This document shows positions 1-43,200 of a DNA stretch of 64,000 nucleotides, one piece after another. Source of the DNA: Ulva prolifera (lineage: Eukaryota > Chlorophyta > Ulvophyceae > Ulvales > Ulvaceae); contig CM041201.1 of the NCBI GenBank assembly GCA_023078555.1, positions 7,881,172-7,945,171 of the forward strand, given 5' to 3'. Each line of letters begins with the position of its first letter. Position 1 is the stretch's first letter. The notes below the pieces were generated by a model. It ran no database searches and was not told the origin of the DNA. It saw nothing but the letters and a program-made list of their open reading frames with translations. A program made the translations under genes and the position numbers.

Positions 1-732
1 CGCGGCTGGGTCTGTGCTTGCGCGACGACTGCCGTGCTGCTCTTGTCACGACTGGCCTTGAAGCCATGATGCGACTGTGGGTGCGATGGAGTCCGCCGTG
101 GATGGAGTCCGCCGTGCAATGGAGTCCACCATGCATGGAGTCCGCCGTGCAATGGAGTCCGCCGTGCATGGTGTCCTCCGTGCATTTTGTGTCCGCCATG
201 CATGGAGTCCGCCGTGCATGGTGTCACACCGGGATGGCGGGATCCTGGTGGCTGTTTCGGAAATGCGATCGTGTGCGGGCAGCTGCTGCATCGGTCTATT
301 GTAGGTGCCTCGTTCCCAACGCGGGGCACACGTACATTCAGTTCTGACTTGTCTGGCCACCCTTGGCCCAGACGTTTGGGAAGGCTGTTTCGCGCCGCCG
401 CAGCTGTCCGGCGCATGGCCACATGCATCTGTGGTCACACCTGTCTTGAAACTGTAGCAGCCATGGCCCTCTGACGGAGTTGGAGGCCCCTGAACTCCTT
501 GAAACCTTTCACAGCTTTGTGACTGGTAACGTGACACTCTCTCATGTGTATCTCTTGCCCCACCATTGGAGCTGAATGCGCCTGAAACACGTGAAACCTA
601 TCAAAGTGACATGTTGCTCTCTGCCAATTGCATTGGTGGCCAATGCGTGCAGGCCGGCTGCACCTGCGGTGCTCATGGGCTCCGCTGCCGGCCTGCGCAC
701 AGACACGGACGCCGGCCGGCATTGCCATGCAG
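1..732. other. Region upstream of the first placed CC2D2A exon
   Basis: Holds the 17-bp tandem repeat and otherwise no gene I can support. The missing N-terminal exons of CC2D2A could lie here or before the window. Confidence 0.4.
86..226. repeat. Tandem repeat, ~17-bp unit
   Basis: About eight imperfect copies of a 16-18 bp unit close to ATGGAGTCCGCCGTGCA. No spacers of constant length, so not a CRISPR array. Confidence 0.9.
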
Positions 733-3700
733 CCAAACCACGCCTTCGCCGGCGCCGGCATCGAGAACCCGGCGTTCCAGGCGTCGGAGAACGTGGCCGA
801 TGCGATCGCTGTGGAGATGCCGCTTGCCCCACCGCACCCTGATGAGCGCGCCGGCTCAAAGATGAAGAAGTTCGTCGGCCACCAGCGCCTCCAGTTTGCG
901 CAGGTGCGCTCTGCAGCTGCTGCGCATGATATCCCTGCCGCCGCTCTCCGGCTGGAACGCTCATGGTATGGTGCTGGCCTCAGGCATCTTGGGCTGTTCC
1001 ATGTCCTCGCAGGCGAGGGCCGGGCTCGAAATCGTGAGATCTCCGTGTCTACGCCAGATTGATTAGCGAGGCCGCCGTGTTTCTGAACAGTGAACGGGTA
1101 TAAACAAATGCGTACACAGCACGAGCATCTCGCTCAGTGCAGCTTTCGCACACACAGCCACACTGCAACGGCCACGCCGCTGTCGCTGTCTACAGCGCAT
1201 TGCAGTTCTGCATCAGCAACAGAGCGAGAGCAGCCGCGATGTCGAGGTGACTGATGCAGTGGCTTCAAGATGCGGACATTGACCCGAACGACCCAAACAA
1301 CGCCAGCCTCGTTGAGCTGCGCCGCCTGCTCGACTCCACACAAGTCCACCTTGCGCAACAGCCGTGCTTCCGGCTGCGAGCCCGCGACTCCTCGTACATG
1401 GCACCTCCGCGCCACGGCGCGCGTGAGCGGCAGGCACAGACTCGCACCCGCTGGGGCGCCACCTCGGCCCGCAGCCCGTGCAAGAGGGCGTCGCCTGCGC
1501 AGGACGCAGGGGGTGGCGACGTGGCGCGGCCAAAGAGCCGCATGGAGGGCGGCCAGCAGCTGGTCATCGCCCTGCGCATCTGGCAGCGGCGGCTGTATGA
1601 TCAGTTGACTGTGCAGCGGGGCCTGCAAGCCGAGCTGGCGTCGGCGCCGCCACCACCGTGCGCTCCTTGCATGCGCTCCATGCATGGCTCCAGCACCGCG
1701 CTTAGCCATCTGGTATACAGTTGCTCTCTTCGGAGGATTGACAGCCGAGGGCGATCATGTAAGCTGCGGTATTCATGACGTGGGGTCGTCGTGGTTTGAG
1801 CGATGTGGGGGCGCCGTGGAAACGACAACCCGCTGCAGTATCCCTGTCCAGCGACGCCTCCTCAATTCGCGTCGTGCAACGCTGAGCAGGGCCGTCAGTG
1901 CAACAGCACAGTTGTTTCTTGTTGTGCGTGCTGGTGTTGCCTTGGGAGCCTGTCTGCACAACAAGCCCCATGCACCTTGATGTTGACCGATCTGGCAGCC
2001 GTCACGCCTCATACTGACACCCTCAAAGATCCGAAGAAGACGGATGACCCCCGTCCCAGCGCGGTGGCAGCAGCAGGCCACTCGTGTAGCCGTGACAGGG
2101 GCATGCATGTCTACAACCACTACGATAGAGATGCTACCACTGCAGGCAGGTGGAGGACTACGTGGACGAGCTGCCGTACGATGCGGAGGGGGGCAGCGTG
2201 CTGGAGGTGGTGGCGGCCGTGCTCGCGCCGGAGCGCCGCCTGGCGCCGCGGCCGCGGCCACAGGCGCAGGCGCACGTCGCCGGCGCGGAGCCGACGCTGG
2301 TGGTCACGGTGCAGCAGGCGGGCAACCTCGCGGCGGCCGAGCAGCCCGACGCGCCACGGCGGCGGACGGCGGAGGACGGCACGCGCCGGCGCTTTGCGAC
2401 GATCGCGACCGCGCGACGCGCCGCGATGGTGTGCCCCCCCGTGCTGCTTGTGCATGTGTGTATGACACACTCAGGCTGATTCACGCACAACGGCTGATCA
2501 CTGATGGGACGCACAGATGCTGATACATTGACATCTGCAGTCACAGGCGCGCGGAGGGGGGCCTGCTCTGTGAGGGGTGGGAGTCAAAGCCCCCTACCCC
2601 ACCATGCTCGCATCGATCGCTGCACCTGCCCGCACGTGCACATGACTCTGCAAGACCTGCTGTCTGTGGTCACAGGAAACCTCGCAAGCTGCCGCGGCGT
2701 CGGCGGACAGCCCTGGCGCCAGTAGCTGGACATTCGTGGAGGCAGCCGCCGGGGGCCTCACGCGGCGCACTGAGGCGATGAGCTTCGGCGCCAACGAGGC
2801 GCGCATGTGGCACCAGGAGCTCACGGTGCCGCTGCGCGACTTCTTGGCCACCGACCGAGAGTCTCGCGGGGCGTGGCTGCATCTGCGCGTATACGATGAA
2901 GTCGCCAGTAGCCACACGCAGCGGCGCAGGCACGTCCTCTCCTGTGTGCATCCCCGTGTGTGCGTGAGAGGTGCCCGCTTTGGTATTACCGGATTTAGAT
3001 GCTCCTGCTCTACCCGACCCTGATGCGCGTACCTGCTCATGCATGCCTCTGGCCCTTCTCGCCCCTGCTCCGTGTAAGCAGCTACACCTCAGCTCGAGCC
3101 AAGTGGAGCGTCTCTTCACGCTCATAGCTGCACCCATCAGTGGCCACAGTAGGCCGGTCGCTGTACGTGTGAGTGATTGAGGCATCTCACGTGGTTGTAT
3201 TGTACAGTACGGGGAAGCAGCACAGCGCGGTTGCCGCGCCAGACTGGTGCTCCGCTGTGCTTGTCAAATGCATGGTGTTGGCATGCAGACCCATTCGGCT
3301 GCGCTGCGATGTGTTGTAGCATATGTTGGTGCTCTGCCATACAACGGCCCGCGCTCCTGCAAGTATATCCACACCTGGCCACGCTGGCGTGCGCGTGGGT
3401 CCAGACGAGCCAGCCGAGGGTGTGCAGGGCAGACCAGCCGCAGACCCGCAGCCTCACCCGCCGGCTGCTCGGGGCGCAGTCGCTGCCGTTGGACGTGCTG
3501 CTCGCGCTCGAGCCGCTGCAGGCGACCCTCCCCCTCACGGGCCCTCGAAACACCCTCGGCTATAAGCCCTGCGGCGGCCCGCCGCACCTTGCGGCCCACA
3601 TCGCCGTGCGTGGCCGCGCGAATCTCCCGGCGAGCGCCGACAAGCGCGGCGCGGCCGCGGCCGCGGCCGCGGCCGCGCCGGTCTGCCTCGCGCACGCAGA

Positions 3701-16000: not shown

Positions 16001-17514
16001 AGGCACATGTTGCCCGCAGGGCAGTGGTGTGCGAGCTCGTGCCCAGCGCAATGCCATGAATGAGTGAGTGGGTCTGCGATTGGATCACGAGAACCGGCTG
16101 GATGCCCGGCATCTGTCTTTTGTACACAGGCAGCACAGGCAGCACAGGCAGCGCAGGCAGCACAGGCAGCACAGGCAGCACAGGCAGCGCAGGCAGCGCA
16201 GGCAGCACAGGCAGCACAGGCAGCGCAGGCAGCGCAGGCAGCACAGGCAGCACAGGCAGCACAGGCAGCGCAGGCAGCACAGGCAGCGCAGGCAGCACAG
16301 GCAGCACAGGCAGCACAGGCAGCGCAGGCAGCACAGGCAGCGCAGGCAGCACAGGCAGCGCAGGCAGCACAGGCAGCACAGGCAGCACAGGCAGCACAGG
16401 CAGCACAGGCAGCACAGGCAGCACAGGCAGCACAGGCAGCACAGGCAGCACAGGCAGCGCAGGCAGCGCACTCCTCGATGTCTCGGATCGGCAGGTCCAC
16501 CCCGTGCTCCGCCTGGTACTCTTGCACTGTCGGGAAGTCCTTCGGCGTGAACACCAGCGCCTTGAAGCTGTACCGCCCCTCGACCTCCCTCAGGAAGTCC
16601 GTTGTCTCCGGGAAGAGATGCAGCGTGTCTATGAAGACCACCTTGACTGCAGGCACGAGTGCGGCATCGTGGGTACATGCGTGAGAGGGCAGAGGTGTGG
16701 GGAGACGGAGGTATGCCCACAGGACAGTACAAGTGACACGATGGAGCGAAGGATACATGGACACGGACAGGTCACAATGACTCGGGCGGGTGCCTGGCAG
16801 GGCAGCATAGAGTATGCTGCCATGCTCCTCAACCGAGAGCAGTGCTCCAAAGATCCATGCAATCCTAGTCGTTCAACTCCAGCTGACACAAATCACACGT
16901 GGGCGGTAGACTGGATGCGACCAGGCACCACAGCCAAGTACGTATGTGTGCGAGCGTGATGTCCACAGGGAACGTGGCAGCGACGAAAACAGCCATGATT
17001 GTTTTGTGCAGGAGCCACGTGGAGGGCAGAGGCAGCATCCCGGATGGAATGCAACATGTGTACAGACACGCAGCGATGGCAAGCAGGCAACATGCAGAGA
17101 AGCAGCTGAAAGGATGGTGCCCTTTCAAGAGTATGTTGTCCAAGGTGTGCATGCAAACTTCAGTGAAAAGCTTCGACGGCCGGTGCAGGACGTGCAAGGG
17201 GCAGAGGGCAGCAAGGCAAGAGATACCGCACCTCTGTCGAGGAGACCTTGTTTATGCAGCAGATGCAGGATGACGACATCCCCGGCGATCAACGCGCAGG
17301 GAAAGACCGGGGCATCAAAAGTGGCCGCTGTGTCCAGGGCATCACATGCTTGTTGAACCAGCTGGTCCATACGCTTTGCCTCGGCCACCTGATTCAGCTC
17401 CGCCACAGATTCGGCTGTTGCAGCATGACAGGCACATGCCGACTTGGAAGGCGGTCTTTCATCTGCAAAAAGCTGCTGTGTGAACAAAACGGGCGCACTG
17501 GCTACGCCGTGCAT
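13045..17514 (-). CDS. Phosphoadenosine phosphosulfate (PAPS) reductase, thioredoxin-dependent type
   Basis: Reduces PAPS to sulfite in assimilatory sulfate reduction. Exons on the minus strand: 17514-17232, 16646-16472, 15218-15138, 14678-14606, 14032-13819, 13106-13045; all phases agree and give 295 residues. Seen in order: an Ala/Thr-rich N-terminus, [78 protein letters not shown] and the catalytic KTECGIH. The tail exon, found by its phase match, supplies the last IH. Where plant APS reductases have a Cys-Cys Fe-S pair before the KxxP segment, this protein has RICKVEP, so it is the Fe-S-free PAPS type. No C-terminal thioredoxin domain is present. Whether the first ~40 residues are a plastid transit peptide is inference. 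Introns hold a minisatellite, a 23-base G run, two copies of a dispersed repeat and an old MITE copy. Confidence 0.88.
13440..13560. repeat. Dispersed repeat, copy A (pair with 16020-16130)
   Basis: Shares about 110 bases at roughly 80% identity, same orientation, with copy B: both contain TGCCATGAATGAGTGA and GATGCCCGGCAT. It lies in the last intron of the PAPS reductase gene. Confidence 0.75.
13576..13674 (-). mobile_element. Diverged MITE copy 3
   Basis: About 99 bp in reverse orientation to copies at 54595 and 55150. It keeps the end sequence CAGTGTTGGGTCGTCGGGCC and the CGGGCCCGATCAC core, plus AATGCTGC near the other end. The interior is diverged and no target duplication remains. Inside the last intron of the PAPS reductase gene. 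Confidence 0.7.
14517..14563. repeat. Three 15-bp direct repeats
   Basis: CACCCTGATGCTGGG repeated three times, the last copy diverging at its end. In an intron of the PAPS reductase gene. Confidence 0.85.
15110..15132. repeat. G homopolymer (23)
   Basis: On the sense strand of the PAPS reductase gene this is a C run starting a few bases after the exon-3 splice donor. Confidence 0.9.
15494..15665. repeat. Two adjacent duplications (27-bp and ~43-bp units)
   Basis: A GCGGGAGGGGCCGAGG-containing unit occurs twice, followed by two copies of a unit containing GGCAGCGCACACGCATGTGC. Intron of the PAPS reductase gene. Confidence 0.85.
16020..16130. repeat. Dispersed repeat, copy B (pair with 13440-13560)
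   Basis: Second copy of the repeat, directly abutting the 9-bp minisatellite, in the second intron of the PAPS reductase gene. Confidence 0.75.
16125..16470. repeat. Minisatellite, 9-bp unit
   Basis: About 38 copies of (A/G)CAGGCAGC-type units. On the gene's strand the array begins at the donor of PAPS reductase exon 2, whose GTGCGC is made from repeat sequence. No stop codon occurs within it in any of the six frames. Confidence 0.95.
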
Positions 17515-24970: not shown

Positions 24971-27900
24971 TCACAGGATGAATGCCTCCTGCACGGCAAT
25001 GGGGTGCTTATTGCCCGCCTGAGATATGTGTAACTTATATTGCCCGCCTGCTAGTGCATTGATCAGGTCACTGTTGGCACTCTGGTGCCAGTGGGATCGC
25101 GGATAGTTGGCAAGCAAGCTACAGCCAGCATTAGGTAGTGGTGCCTGTACAGGTAATGCCTGCACATACTCTGGATGAGAGCAACAGCAGGGAAAACTTC
25201 CATGGAGCAGAGGAGGCAAACGTTTTTTTGCAAAAACAGCATGCCTGGACCACCAACGTTGGCATGCCTGCAATACAACACTGTCTCTGCCGGGCAAAGG
25301 AGCAGATGGCGAAACCAGATGACCCGCTGTTGCCACAGCGTGCACAGTAACTGGATCAGCTGTTCCTCGCCAGGGCCGCACCATGGTATCTTCTGAGAGC
25401 AGCTTTCTGCGGCCCTTTTTACCCTTCTTCCCCTTCTTTCCTTTCCTGCCTTCGTTGCCTTCATTACCCTCATTACCCTCGTTCCCCTCGTTCCCCTCAT
25501 TCCCCTCATTCCCATTGTTCCTGCTGTTCTTCTTCCCCTTCTTCCCCTTCTTGCCTTTCCTTCCCTCATTACCCTCGTTTCCCTCATTCCCTTCATTCCC
25601 CTCGTTGCCTTCATTGCCCTCATTCCCGTTGTTCTTGCTGTTCTTCTTGCCCTTCTTGCCTTTCCTCCCCTCATTACCCTCATTGCCCTCATTCCCTTCA
25701 TTCCCCTCGTTGCCCTCGTTTCCCTCGTTCCCGTTGTTGTTGCTGTTCTTCTTCTTGCCCTTGCCCTTGCGTCCCTCGTTGCCCTCGTTTCCTTCATTGC
25801 CCTCATTCCCCTCGTTCCCATCATTCCCGTTGTTGCCACGCTGCTCCACGTTGCGCACTCCGGATGCGCTGCTGCGGAAGTTGGGAGAGGGGGAGGAGCT
25901 AGAACAGCCGCCCGTGACCAGCTTGATGTCATCAAACATGATGTACTGAGTCTTGCTGGGCCGGAACTGTGGTGAGCTTCCTCCGTGAAACGAGTGGAAG
26001 ATGACTGCAGGCATCCAGCCTGTGACCATGACTGCCAAAACCCCGACGATAAAGTGATGCAGCAGAGATAGGTAGGAGAGATATATCGGACTGCACAGTC
26101 ATGAGCAGGGACCCTCCAGAACAAGAGTTTCGACGGATCAGGTAAGCACAAAGGCCAGCACGTTTAAGCAGCAAAGACCGCCTCTGCATTCTGCAGCCTT
26201 CTGTGGCTCTGCTCTGACAGCACTTCAGTAGAGACGCACATTTCTCGATCGCATGGCGCCCAGAGTTGCGGTACACGACGTCGCTCTTGCTGAGGACCGT
26301 GTTGCCATTGACCTTGATCGTCTGCTTTCCATTCTTCTGCCCTGCAGCTCATGCCCAATGGCTGTGGTGTCGTGTACGTTTGTGACATGGTTGACAAATT
26401 CACATGGGCTATGCTCCAGATGATTGGACCCAGACAACGTTAACAGTGCTGTGAGTCTGCTAGGCCAAAGCATGCAGCAACCATGCAGGTATTGGAATGC
26501 CTGCCACCAATCATCAATGACTGTTGATGACTCCCCATGTCTCACAGCTGTGCAAATGATGCACGTCTCAAAGCTGCACAGTGGCCTTTATAAGGTTTTA
26601 TCCTTGTCAGACAGTGGCCTTCACAGACTGTTGCAACAAAGGCAAGAACAGTACACATGACACAAGGTGTGGCAATCCAGTGGTATAGCTATACCACTGG
26701 ATTGCCACACAAGGCTTCACACACAGACAACACATCCTGGTCTGCAGGACAAGGTCAGAAGGGGGCAGGAGGCCCCCACAGCTCGTCTCTCTAAAAAAAA
26801 AAGTCGTCCTCTGTTGACAAAGGACTCGAGTACAGAAGTGCAAATGTCTGCTGGTCTCATGTGGCCTCTGGTGGCATGTGCTGCTGCATAATGCAGTGCT
26901 TCATGCTGCCTTTGTGCATGGCAGACTTGCAGCATAAAGTGAACTCCCTGCCTCAGCTGAGGAGCTCAGAGAGGTCATGGATGTGCTTGCAGGGCAGCTG
27001 CAGCTCAGAAGCTGCAAGTGGCATGCAGCATCTGCAAGCAGCCTGCTCATATGCATGCATGCATGCACATTTGGCTATATCTCTCCACTCCAAGCTGAGA
27101 CACAGGTAGGAGTCACACACAAAATCTGAGCTGCCTGTCTCGGCCATTGACTGGATGTGTTCTGTGGCTGGGCCTGCTCAAGCCTGCATCTGTGACCCTT
27201 CTCACAACAGTCAGTGCCATCTCTCACTACACAAGTTCATGAACAGGTGAGAAGGCATGAGTGGCACCACATCATGAGACCTCACCAAGGGTTGACCAAA
27301 AGTGGCACCTTTCTCTATACCATGATCACCAGAGATGATGCCAGGCCTGGCTGGCCTGATGACTACCAGGCCCACCATTGCATGCATGCATGCCAGCCAG
27401 GCCCTGGAGGCCACTTATGAACCAGAGAGAGCATAGTTGCTGCTACCTTCGCACTTCAGGTGGCTGGTCCTCCTCTAAAGGCCTTTCTTTAGAGGCGATT
27501 TCAGATCTATGGCATAGGCCACAGAAAACTTTTCTTGGTTCTCTAGACCATGCTGCACGAGCATCATCAAACAACCCATGCATCAAACAATTCACTTGCA
27601 GTTTCTATTCTGCACTCGTTTCTGCGGGGGAACAGAGATGAACTCCCTGCCAGGCAGACCGGTCCCCGGGTGGCCGGTTGCAATAAAAAAAAATCAAGTA
27701 TGTATGTCCGTATGTATTTGTGCATGATTCTGATTCACACCTGGGGTGTTCATCTTGGTGTAGATCTCGGCCGTCTGCCAGCTGCTGGAGCCCTTGGCGC
27801 CGTTGTAGCCCCAGTCGGCGCCGCAGTTGTTCGAGTAGTCGCCCGGGAGGTACATGTACGACACCAGGTTGCCGCCGTCGCGGAACATCATGCGCGTGCT

Positions 27901-29226
27901 GAACCCCATCGACGTCGGCTTCGACTGGCACCCCGACGGGCAGTCTGCAGGCGCATGTGTGATGAGAGTCTGGGTAGCAGAACACAACCCTATACTATAG
28001 TACACTGCAGTATCAGTGCGAGGCGGCATGGTAGACACGTGCAGGCTATACCCGCAACACCGGTTTGTACTAAACAGATATGTTTGAGCACTTCAAAGGA
28101 AAGCCTTCGCAGACACACGGATTCCCAGCGACGGTGGCGTTCCAATGCCGGACGAACATACCACATCGTTGCCGTGCAGTCAAGGCATTGGATTGCCACG
28201 CCAACAGGCTGTGCTGTGCGCAACAGGGCTACCAGAGACCGGATCAGAGATCATGAGGGGTCTGCGCACCCTCTGAGCACACGCCGGGACCGAGCTTGCC
28301 CCCGGCCGTCCAGTCGTAGCCGCCGTCAAACTTGAATTTGAAGGTCAGTGTTGCAGAGTCCACGGGCTCGGGGAGGCGCACGGAGTACAGCATGCCGCAC
28401 TGGTTGCCGCCCACACACCCTGTACCAACACGCGCACGCGCCGTTAGCTTTTCCCCGACGAGGGTTGGGCAGGGTCACTGCACTGCTGCTTTCCGGGCGA
28501 TTATAATTATAATTATCGCCTGAGCCGGAGCCAAGCAAAGTATCAATCGCCTGAAGCCTTTGATTCGGAGTGGCGATCTGACAAAGCATGCAGGACGGGA
28601 TTCTGTATGTGGCCGAAAAGCACAAGAAGGATTGAGATGTGAAGCGACTGCATACAGCATGCTGGGCGCAGAGCGGCGCATGTTTCACGCAGACTGATGC
28701 TGCCATCGCCACGCCCCGCTGCCTGCCGACTCGACTGAAACCCTGGAAGTTTTGCATATGGCCGTCCGCGATGGGGGAGGGCGGGGCAGCACAAGCAGCC
28801 GCAGCGTGCTCATGCCCTGCGCAGCCTTGCTCGCTGGGTTGCGAGCGGAATTGTCCCATGAAAAAGAGGGGTGGGGCACAAGGCTGCTGCTGTGGAGGGG
28901 GCCGCACCCTGGGGGTGTTTCACACGCAGGTGGCCGTTGCCGACCTCTGCGCGCTCGAGGCCCTTCGCAAACGTGAACCCTGCGGTGTGCGTCGCGCCGC
29001 CGCCGGCGCCGGAGCGCTTGCCTCCGCGCGGGAAGTCCGCCATGAGCGCACTGAGAGACAGCTGCTTGTAGCCGCCGCTGTGCTGGTTGAAGTTTTGGTT
29101 GATGACGGTCTTGCCGGAGCATGCGAGGGCGGGCGCGGCGAGCAGCGCGAGCGCCAGCACACGCAGCAGGACCGCGGCCACGCTGGCCGGCTTGCCATGA
29201 CTCCTGCAGCGACGCAACATGGTCAT
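24971..29226 (-). CDS. Secreted polysaccharide lyase family 14-like protein with Asn-Glu-Gly/Lys repeat tail
   Basis: Exons on the minus strand: 29226-28908, 28419-28270, 27944-27741, 26341-26240, 26031-24971; phases agree, about 610 residues, all four introns phase 1. Start at 29226 or 29220 precedes a signal peptide (hydrophobic LLRVLALALLAAPALA, then Cys). The body has the PL14 beta-sheet pattern: TLTFKFKFDGGYDWTAGGKL, GFSTRMMFRDGG, VSYMYLPGDY, IYTKMNTPG, KVNGNTVL, FHSFHGG and YIMFDDIKLV. PL14 enzymes cleave alginate or glucuronate polymers by beta-elimination; substrate here is unknown. Residues ~318-471 are four blocks of repeated NEG triplets, each followed by an RKGKK-type basic block, then ~135 residues that I do not recognise. 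Intron 3 is 1.4 kb and holds a 44-bp perfect palindrome. The stop at 24971 follows the open frame; a spliced, shorter end is possible. Confidence 0.8.
25387..25845 (-). repeat. Coding repeats: NEG arrays alternating with RKGKK blocks
   Basis: Nine-base units (coding Asn-Glu-Gly) occur in four arrays of about five to seven copies, separated by Asn-rich and Lys/Gly-rich basic spacers. The basic blocks lengthen from the N- to the C-terminal block by adding GKK units. The opposite strand reads as Phe-Pro-Ser repeats, which is only a shadow. Confidence 0.9.
26667..26710. repeat. 44-bp perfect palindrome
   Basis: Arms of 22 bases beginning GTGTGGCAATCCAGTGGTAT with no spacer, in intron 3 of the PL14 gene. 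The direct repeat ACAAGG overlaps both ends. Confidence 0.95.
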
Positions 29227-40249: not shown

Positions 40250-43200
40250 ATGAACGGAAACAGTGCATCCCCGCGTCAGGGCTCGGTCGAGAACGGCGGG
40301 CCATGCGCTTTCCTCCGGCTGGCATGGAACAGTGGCGCATTCACATTGATCCCTGTCCTCGTCCTATACATCGCAGGTGCGTCCTCGCATCCATTACACC
40401 AACCGTGGGCCAGCACTGGCGACTCGCGCTGAGGCCAATAGAACCCCACATGTGACGAAGTGCGCGAGACCTGATCGTCCATCTTGCGCCGTCCAGTGAC
40501 CCTGGTACCAATGTAAGCATCCCGTGGTCAGCTAAAACCGTGGAGACATGTCAAATTCTGCGGTCCCTGCGCAGACAGCTCCGTTCTGTCTCCACGTCAC
40601 GCGACACTGCAGACTGGCATGCAGGCTTCGCCGTGATGATGCCGTACCTGCCAAATCTACTGACAGACTTCTTTTCTAGCAAAATCCATGGCTCGCCCAT
40701 CCGCTGCGAGGAGTTCGAGTACAGCAGGCTGCCGGAAGCCTGTCTACGAGGCTCAGCCGTGAACGTCTACTGGAGCTCCATCACCTCGTTCTTCACCAAT
40801 TCCGTCCTTGTGTTCCTATGTGCTCCAATGACGGGCGTCTGGAGCGACATACTCGGCCGGAAACCGTTCCTCATCCTCTCCCAGGTCCTCTCCATGGCAT
40901 CCAAGGTCATCATCCTCGCGCATGTCTTCACAGGCACAACCCTCTACGCATACTACCCAATAAACCTCGTCGACGGCGTGGTATCACCACTGGTCGTGTC
41001 ATTGGCAGCTATGGCAGATGTGGTCCCGCCACAGCACCGTGCTGCCATGTTCTCCGTCACCCTCGGGTCGTTCTCTGTCGGAATCGCAATCGCACCGAAG
41101 CTAGGCATTGCCCTGGGTCTCAAGAAAGCTGTTGCGCTGGGCGTCCTTCTCAAGGCCCTGGGCGTCCTTTACACAATCGTGCGCCCCTGTCCTCTCTCTA
41201 CAGGCCCCAGGGCGCAGCGCCGCTGCGCTCCATTCAGCTATCCAGGCGCCCGCTGAAGACGATTGCCCTGCATGCGCCAATACACTCTACAGTTGGTGGG
41301 CCAGGCACAAATGCACACACCGTAGCATCCCCACTATACGGGGGGCGGCGCCACTGTCAAGGTGTGGGGTTGCAGCGGATGGCGGACTCGCACACATGCA
41401 TGTGTGCGAGTTCCACATGTGTGCGAATTCGCCAGCTGGCCCGGCGCACGGGGCATCGAACTCGCCTGACGAAAGCCAACGCCGGGCCCCGCATGAGCCA
41501 TACATGCTCACGCACCATGCAGCACCGCATCAGTTTCTGGAAGGCCCTCATGCATTGTCATCATGCATGCATTGTTCACGTGGCTACAGGGGGAATTTCG
41601 GCTCCACCGCCCTCTCAAAGCACCAGTATCATTGCCAGGGCTTCTCCAGGCGATCACCGCGTACCCGGCACAGCCACGACTAGAAAACGCGGCACAGGGA
41701 GCCGGGCGATAGCCAGGGTTGCGTTCCCCTGGCCACAACCCCTTCTGCTTTCATCTCATCAACATCGCACATGCATGCGCACACACCGCCCGGGCCGTGC
41801 ACCCCCACCGAGGCCTCGGTATGTGGCATGTCGTGGCGTAGCCCTGCAGCGGGTGGCGAGCAGCAGCCCAAGCTGCAGGCCCTCGATGCCGCCGTTCGAC
41901 CAATTGCAACCCTCTCCTCTGCGGTGCGCTCGCCGCCGTATACCGCAGAATTTGTTCGAACGAGGATGTCGCCCCTTTGAATATACCAGAGGCGCCGGCA
42001 TCGTCACGTGCGGGCGCCTCCATGCAACCGGTTGAAAATGATCCTGCAGCTGACTCGTCAATGTGGCCCTCGTCAGACGACAGCGGCTGTAAACTCTCGG
42101 CCATGTGTGTTGGCATGCATGCCAGCTCAGGCCAGCGCCTGTCTATGTGCTACAAGGACCAAGTCGGTGATGCTCGTCGCAGCACACGCACACGCACACC
42201 GAGGTCACCGTGGCCGACCCGAGTCAAACAGACATCGCCCGGCTACGTGTCAGAGCCTGCAGCATCTGCCTTGCCGCGACGGCCCCAGCCCTGACGTGAT
42301 CCGGCGAGAACATGCCCCACTGACATCCCACTGCGACACACGCAATCCCCACTCTGCATGCCCCCCATGCCTTTTTTTCGCCCCTGCCCCAGCTTGCATG
42401 GACCCCGGAACCTGCCCGAACGAGTCATCTGTGTCATCTCTACCTGTGTACAGCAAGGCAGAGTGACTGATATCAGACACGTGGGGCAGTCAAGCTGTGC
42501 CTACTATGCATAGCTACGATCCATCCACCCATCAGAGCGGCGTCCAGCTATCCCAGCTATCCTGCGCTAGCATGTTGCACTGCTGTGGTAGTGGAGCTCT
42601 GTGCACTGCTGCCCAGAGACTGCAGCCATTACCAGACGGTAGCGTATTTGGTAGCGTATTTTCGTGGCAATCCAGTGGAAGCGGTGATCCGACAGGATGA
42701 TATTACTGTAGCATGCCACTGGACAGGTATGCGCACGCCGTGTTCGATGCAGCAGCTAGCTCCGGAATCTCGTGTTGCCCCACATGCAGCATGCAATGAC
42801 TGCGACCCCTCACCCGCCTCCAGACACTACACCATACAGCGTGTGAAAGGCGATCATAAGCTTGAGGCCGAGGCAGGTGAGTCACAGCTGAGTCACGGCT
42901 GCCTCTGAGCGTACGTATCCCAAATCAGCTGTGTGGCAATTGTTACAATCGAATTGTATCCCACCTCAGATGCTTGGCAATACAGCTACGTATGTCCCGG
43001 GTGTATGTCTTGGGTCACATCGGCACAAGGCATCAGGCTGCAAGCGCACAGCACAGCACAGCACAGCACAGCACAGCACAGCACAGCACAGCACAGCACA
43101 GCACAGCACAGATGGGATCGGCGATGCCTGACCCTGCCTGGCCTGACAAACACCTGGCCTGACCTCATGCGCTGCATATGTGTGTGCACAAGCCTTTAGC

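Follow-up and report, generated by a model that had tools for sequence, protein, structure and literature searches.

The polysaccharide lyases of family PL14 (Pfam PF21294) include vAL-1 (PDB 3a0n) and the alginate lyases 6kcw and 5gmt, and collagen genes have been reported from Ulva, with 4 in U. compressa and 28 in U. mutabilis (PMC9266709; this and the other papers are cited from excerpts). In designed triblock collagen peptides, acidic and basic end blocks pair from one chain to another (PMC11203499), and the collagen-like region of Lcl, a bacterial trimeric surface protein, has been reported to bind the sulphated seaweed polysaccharide fucoidan (PMC11162425). Here we analysed a 64,000-nucleotide stretch of the Ulva prolifera genome (GenBank assembly GCA_023078555.1, contig CM041201.1, positions 7,881,172 to 7,945,171 of the forward strand), hereafter the window, which is C6:7881172-7945171 of the 88.9 Mb, 44-contig genome that was searched. 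Two plastocyanin exons of this genome, joined by eye, gave a protein identical at 98/98 residues to PDB 7pcy, the plastocyanin of Enteromorpha (now Ulva) prolifera, and less similar to 1iuz of Ulva pertusa, which points to U. prolifera. Its minus strand holds a gene whose predicted protein resembles the PL14 enzymes in its domain match, with an aligned Lys and two Tyr kept among three paralogs of this genome, but differs from them by a charged tail. The tail has the Gly-X-Y register and the Pfam Collagen match of collagen-like proteins, but differs from these in lacking proline, in the segregation of acidic NEG from basic RKG/KKG blocks and in being joined to an enzyme. The designed peptides have a central collagen-like block, whereas the natural tail has none, and pairing of its blocks between chains is hypothetical; the likeness to Lcl lies in a collagen-like region by description only. 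We put the chances at about even that, as the sequence suggests, this is a nuclear Ulva gene for a secreted PL14-type uronan lyase, with a charge-blocked Gly-X-Y tail that would hold the enzyme in the wall.

The lyase gene spans 29226 to about 25400 on the minus strand and was modelled with five exons and four GT-AG introns, phase 1 throughout. Codon statistics were trained on other loci only, with the background taken from outside the gene. The exons, their coding segments and the parts of the tail are as follows, in window positions.

28908..29226, minus strand: exon 1, with the start ATG, a hydrophobic N-terminus (signal-peptide-like, by eye) and the beginning of the mature protein; donor GTGCGG
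29196-28933, minus strand: coding segment of exon 1, codon score 53.6
28270..28419, minus strand: exon 2, PL14 domain including GGKLGPG, its Lys aligned to the PDB 6kcw Lys; coding score 25.4
27741..27944, minus strand: exon 3, PL14 domain including FSTR and VSYMY; coding score 45
26240..26341, minus strand: exon 4, PL14 domain; coding score 18
25406..26004, minus strand: exon 5 as far as coding is supported: the last PL14 strands, a Ser-rich linker and the charged Gly-X-Y array
26005-25409, minus strand: coding segment of exon 5, codon score 96.9, training on other loci
25406..25837, minus strand: the array, 144 residues (G 43, N 39, E 26, K 25, R 7, S 3, D 1, P 0)
25763..25837, minus strand: unbroken Gly-X-Y block 1, 25 residues
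25643..25732, minus strand: unbroken Gly-X-Y block 2, 30 residues
25529..25627, minus strand: unbroken Gly-X-Y block 3, 33 residues
25406..25513, minus strand: unbroken Gly-X-Y block 4, 36 residues
24971..25405, minus strand: open-frame extension, 144 codons plus stop, probably non-coding; a splice or 3' end is expected near 25382

The enzyme is, by profile, a member of PL14. Residues 99-285 of the protein aligned to positions 8-215 of the 215-position PF21294 profile (Polysacc_lyase_14) with 102.9 bits against a cut-off of 27, and the PDB relatives were the alginate lyase 6kcw (E 6e-11), 6kcv, 6kzk and vAL-1 3a0n (E 2.6e-5). A preliminary description of the locus had proposed a PL14-like lyase and had made that proposal depend on a profile search, which gave this clear match. 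The revised domain is 46% identical to that of a paralog on contig C4. Lys114 (GGKL), Tyr152 and Tyr154 (SYMY) were invariant across three PL14 proteins of this genome, as was the Arg of MMFRD, and the window gene shares Ser138 and Arg140 of FSTR with the C4 paralog; the third sequence, which was exon-joined, does not include that stretch. We take the PL14 catalytic set to be Lys, Ser, Arg and two Tyr, from work on vAL-1. The position of the Lys in GGKLGPG is Lys in 6kcw and Ala in the PDB chains 6kcv and 6kzk; the PL14 paralogs read GGKLPG, whereas the window gene has one extra Gly. Bacterial PL14 relatives from Nonlabens and Acidimicrobiia were found to have other C-terminal regions, that of the Nonlabens protein holding repeated SDSDGSISKVELFIDD units. 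In viral contigs there were 54 pattern matches for PL14 relatives, none of which tblastn confirmed.

Exon 5 more likely begins at acceptor 26004 (CTGCAG), because the C4 paralog aligns across the exon 4/5 junction without the 9 residues given by acceptor 26031, the PL14 score is higher (102.9 bits vs 90.9 bits), and the codon scan, trained on other loci, places the start of exon 5 coding at 26005. Acceptor 26031 was considered and found less likely; the choice of 26004 drops exactly those 9 residues. At the other end of the exon, the preliminary description, which carried coding sequence down to 24971, needs to be shortened. The PL14 part scored +0.42 bits/codon and the linker plus array +0.52, against -0.75 for the 144 codons after the array, and 146 intron frames used for comparison had a mean of -0.84 and a maximum of -0.24. 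The G + C content at third codon positions (GC3) was 48% in these 144 codons vs a comparison value of 87%. They thus probably do not code. From 25405 down to 20872 no codon-scan segment scored above 12, a scan that a very short last exon would escape. A donor-like ATG/GTGCGG lies at 25382/25381, its GTGCGG identical to the donor of exon 1, and the lyase protein probably terminates a short way past the array, perhaps by way of this donor.

The tail follows the last PL14 strands, a Ser-rich linker and the residues VEQR. It consists of four acidic NEG/NDG runs (6, 7, 7 and 7 triplets), and a basic block stands at the end of each run; these blocks hold 6, 7, 9 and 10 K/R in turn, so that the growth of the Lys/Gly-rich blocks toward the C-terminus noticed in the preliminary description was borne out by the count. 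That description did not include the Gly-X-Y register, which continues across each acidic-to-basic change, three interruptions separating the four unbroken blocks. The feature itself is real, and apart from the 3' end it had been described well. Read from the predicted protein, the tail combines the charge pattern of a polyampholyte with the collagen register, without the proline expected of collagen.

It is unlikely, in our judgement, that the array serves as a genuine trimerisation stalk of the collagen type, with three-chain triple helices and the enzyme carried as a trimer or in a fibre. The array did match Pfam Collagen (PF01391) at 52.2 bits over a cut-off of 27.2, and its unbroken blocks run to 25 to 36 residues; collagen genes are already credited to Ulva genomes (PMC9266709), and designed collagen peptides assemble when their blocks of opposite charge pair (PMC11203499). 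However, there is not one proline among the 144 residues, the Gly-X-Y blocks are short, with Asn-rich spacers interrupting them, and we take the Pfam match to rest on glycine spacing. An AlphaFold model of a single tail chain had a mean predicted local distance difference test (pLDDT) score of 47.3 and no structure, a result uninformative on trimers. The collagen genes reported from Ulva and the arrays described here may be one and the same repeat family.

At the nucleotide level, Tandem Repeats Finder reported a 105-base unit (score 453) at 25424-25828. The 27 N[E/D]G units occur in 13 distinct 9-base versions, and 35/35 deviations from the consensus triplet fall at codon position 3, which indicates that the tail sequence is selected at the protein level. 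In triplet runs of at least four, over 20 array entries and 650 triplets, AAT/AAC were used 273/265 times and GAG/GAA 469/154 times, together with all four Gly codons. The repeat is therefore kept as protein, under selection. These counts bear on the suggestion, about as improbable to us as the stalk, that the array is a neutral slippage expansion tolerated without a role at a disordered C-terminus. Array copy number does differ between loci, only one of the eight PL14 loci found shows an array, and in the C4 paralog the same VEQR leads into a Pro-rich stretch; yet the 13 versions in 27 units and the restriction of every deviation to the third position contrast with a 9-base minisatellite in the same window that has two versions in 38 units, and the NEG motif recurs in unrelated families. 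That minisatellite, CACAGGCAG at window 16125-16467 on the plus strand, was itself scored as Collagen in the genome search (C6:7897300-7897635), and looks like an intronic repeat rich in splice-acceptor-like CACAG.

A fold of the four acid-base segments on one chain, as an antiparallel polyproline-II-like bundle with each acidic half against the next basic half, seems to us highly improbable. Such a fold is known from Gly-X-X antifreeze proteins, and Gly at every third residue, four acid-then-base segments and short Asn-rich turns would suit it; the acidic runs of 6-7 triplets nevertheless exceed the basic runs in length, and modelling the tail from its single sequence yielded no structure. 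Least probable of all, by a hair, is that the repeat is spliced out or that the model fuses two genes, so that no lyase carries the tail, since in spite of the uncertain 3' end of the gene the array and the last PL14 strands lie in one open frame, and 26005-25409 is one coding segment scoring 96.9.

The repeat is widespread in the genome. In both genome repeat searches 150 first-look candidates were scored (of 287 and 356), so that the locus counts are lower bounds. The acidic query gave at least 152 matches in at least 95 loci (150 of the 152 matches clustered within 4 kb), and the acid/basic query at least 43 places in at least 24 loci (25 picked starts of the 43 clustered); a third array search by Collagen scoring, with 125 rows, was left out of the locus clustering. 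With at least 95 loci carrying acidic repeat matches, the tail is not special to this gene. At least 31 of these at least 95 NEG/DEG loci lie within 0.6 Mb, in a cluster at C3:1.34-1.97 Mb. The window gene belongs to what we call the NEG-array family, defined by tandem [N/D][E/D]G triplets with synonymous variation, a large family whose members would be proteins of the secreted type. Scoring covered 20 array entries: the window, 18 single loci, and L025 and L026 joined. Nine of them had an internal basic spacer with at least four K/R, and 25 of the 51 internal spacers were of this kind.

Arrays were found joined to several kinds of gene besides the lyase. At L033 a GH5 cellulase domain (PF00150, 85.9 bits at L033:5442-6662) splices in phase to an exon with a start codon, a hydrophobic segment and an array, giving a 545-residue model; one of the two GH5 loci found has an array. 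So do three of the four CAP loci found, all on contig C2 (L031, L047 and L048): the CAP domain (PF00188) scored 40.5 bits on the joined L031 exons, and at L047 and L048 the array and the start of CAP lie in one open frame. Exons downstream of the array at L030 matched the PDB expansin 9ms5 (E 7.1e-6) and their pieces gave no expansin match in Pfam, for which reason we call the locus expansin-like; an array occurs at one of the two such loci found. The fourth CAP, second GH5 and second expansin-like loci had no array row in the three genome repeat searches, the rows of these searches being the scope of this negative. Further groups with arrays, partly matched by eye, were one with an Ala-rich Cys domain (L036, L038, L039, L042 and L053), one with a Cys motif (L027, L034, L035, L041 and L051), and the pair L023/L029. 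For the L023/L029 domain there was no Pfam match and nothing below E 0.7 in PDB, and for the Ala-rich domain of L036 nothing below E 0.38 in PDB and nothing besides Collagen in Pfam. L038, where the array adjoins the Ala-rich, Cys-containing domain and Collagen is the only Pfam match, lies inside the C3 cluster. Searches of the genome gave no match for the GH16 family and none for the gametolysin family, the latter search being without a positive control.

The new point, as far as predicted proteins go, is that one charged repeat is widely used in one alga, on several kinds of gene including wall-related ones. Among the matches listed in our literature searches there was no paper on the NEG repeat or its fusions, although an earlier description, for example in the Ulva mutabilis genome paper, is possible; a search of papers for the repeat letters gave, among the matches listed, seemingly chance letter matches.

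Several other repeats were seen in passing. L052 (C8:2494000-2496200) has a long Gly-X-Y region with mixed X and Y residues (GAKGDEGSQG, GLRG) and is nearer to ordinary collagen than to the NEG arrays. L049 (C7:1012400-1014800) encodes a mosaic protein in which Pro-Glu-Val repeats and Cys-rich units come first, and DEG/NEG arrays with a KKKGGKG block come after them. On the minus strand of L037, at about 530-3373, an open frame with long MNQTHPQAVPHQT repeats lies beside a DEG-array gene. In the window, 43046-43111 is a perfect 5-base repeat, GCACA, of 13.2 copies.

The PL14 genes of this alga vary at their C-termini. In the C4 paralog VEQR is followed by the Pro-rich PSPTPSPEPSPTP, and in the window gene by the charged array, so that the boundary is kept and the tails differ, which suggests from the two sequences that tails were exchanged at a fixed boundary. 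Another PL14 gene (L011, C6:7.083 Mb) has a Pro-rich tail, PPPNPPPTRTPPPRAPP; PL14 genes of this alga can therefore differ in their tails.

The sequence itself shows the domain, the repeat, the selection acting on it and the fusions. What we infer is that the protein is secreted and catalytically active, what its substrate would be, that the tail binds and that a matrix is assembled; wall tethering by the tail would be the best reading. The lyase protein has a hydrophobic N-terminal segment, judged by eye, and the occurrence of arrays on CAP, GH5 and expansin-like genes helps to make tethering to a charged wall polymer plausible. The NEG-array CAP genes resemble the lyase gene in joining an array to a known secreted-protein domain. 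A number of observations weigh against wall tethering. In the GH5, CAP and expansin-like genes the array stands ahead of the domain, whereas in the PL14 gene it follows, and the arrays of the GH5 gene and of two of the three CAP genes are acidic only, unlike that of the lyase gene. A strongly basic internal spacer was present in only the nine of 20 array entries counted above. Over 23 spacers (two of the 25 basic ones were dropped for also holding D/E), neighbouring acid and base counts were no better matched than after shuffling (fraction 0.11), and charge matching between an acidic run and the basic block that follows it was rejected as evidence. A NEG array was present in 0/7 other PL14 loci, in stretches of about 3 kb each, which means that the lyase domain can do without the tail.

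On the tethering reading, the lyase would be secreted and would then cut polyuronate by beta-elimination. The wall of Ulva is described as containing cellulose, ulvan, xyloglucan and glucuronan (PMC10762512), and the literature attributes to glucuronans an interaction with both ulvans and proteins (PMC10762512, PMC8307928). Because Ulva walls contain it, glucuronan is a plausible substrate, and the likeliest target would be the glucuronan of the alga's own wall. The tail would serve as a retention and assembly element holding the enzyme in the wall: its Lys-rich KKG blocks may pair with polyanions such as ulvan and glucuronan, and the acidic NEG blocks of one member may pair with the basic blocks of others, so that lyase, cellulase, expansin-like and CAP proteins would be kept together in the matrix. 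For this chemistry the evidence is indirect, coming from the pairing of the designed collagen peptides (PMC11203499) and the reported fucoidan binding of the bacterial collagen-like region (PMC11162425). A more tentative proposal, which we think could be right but would not expect to be, is that charge-blocked Gly-X-Y is a lineage-specific address tag, added to unrelated wall-acting families and co-assembling with ulvan and glucuronan into an enzyme-bearing network, a counterpart of animal collagen.

If the tethering reading is true, a function would have been found for some of the so-called collagen genes of Ulva, and the repeat would be a candidate for the means by which a green seaweed retains its wall-remodelling enzymes, in seawater and in a wall of high charge. 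There would also be a short polyampholyte, genetically encoded, with which to bind ulvan-type polymers, and it would suggest that the alga edits its own glucuronan.

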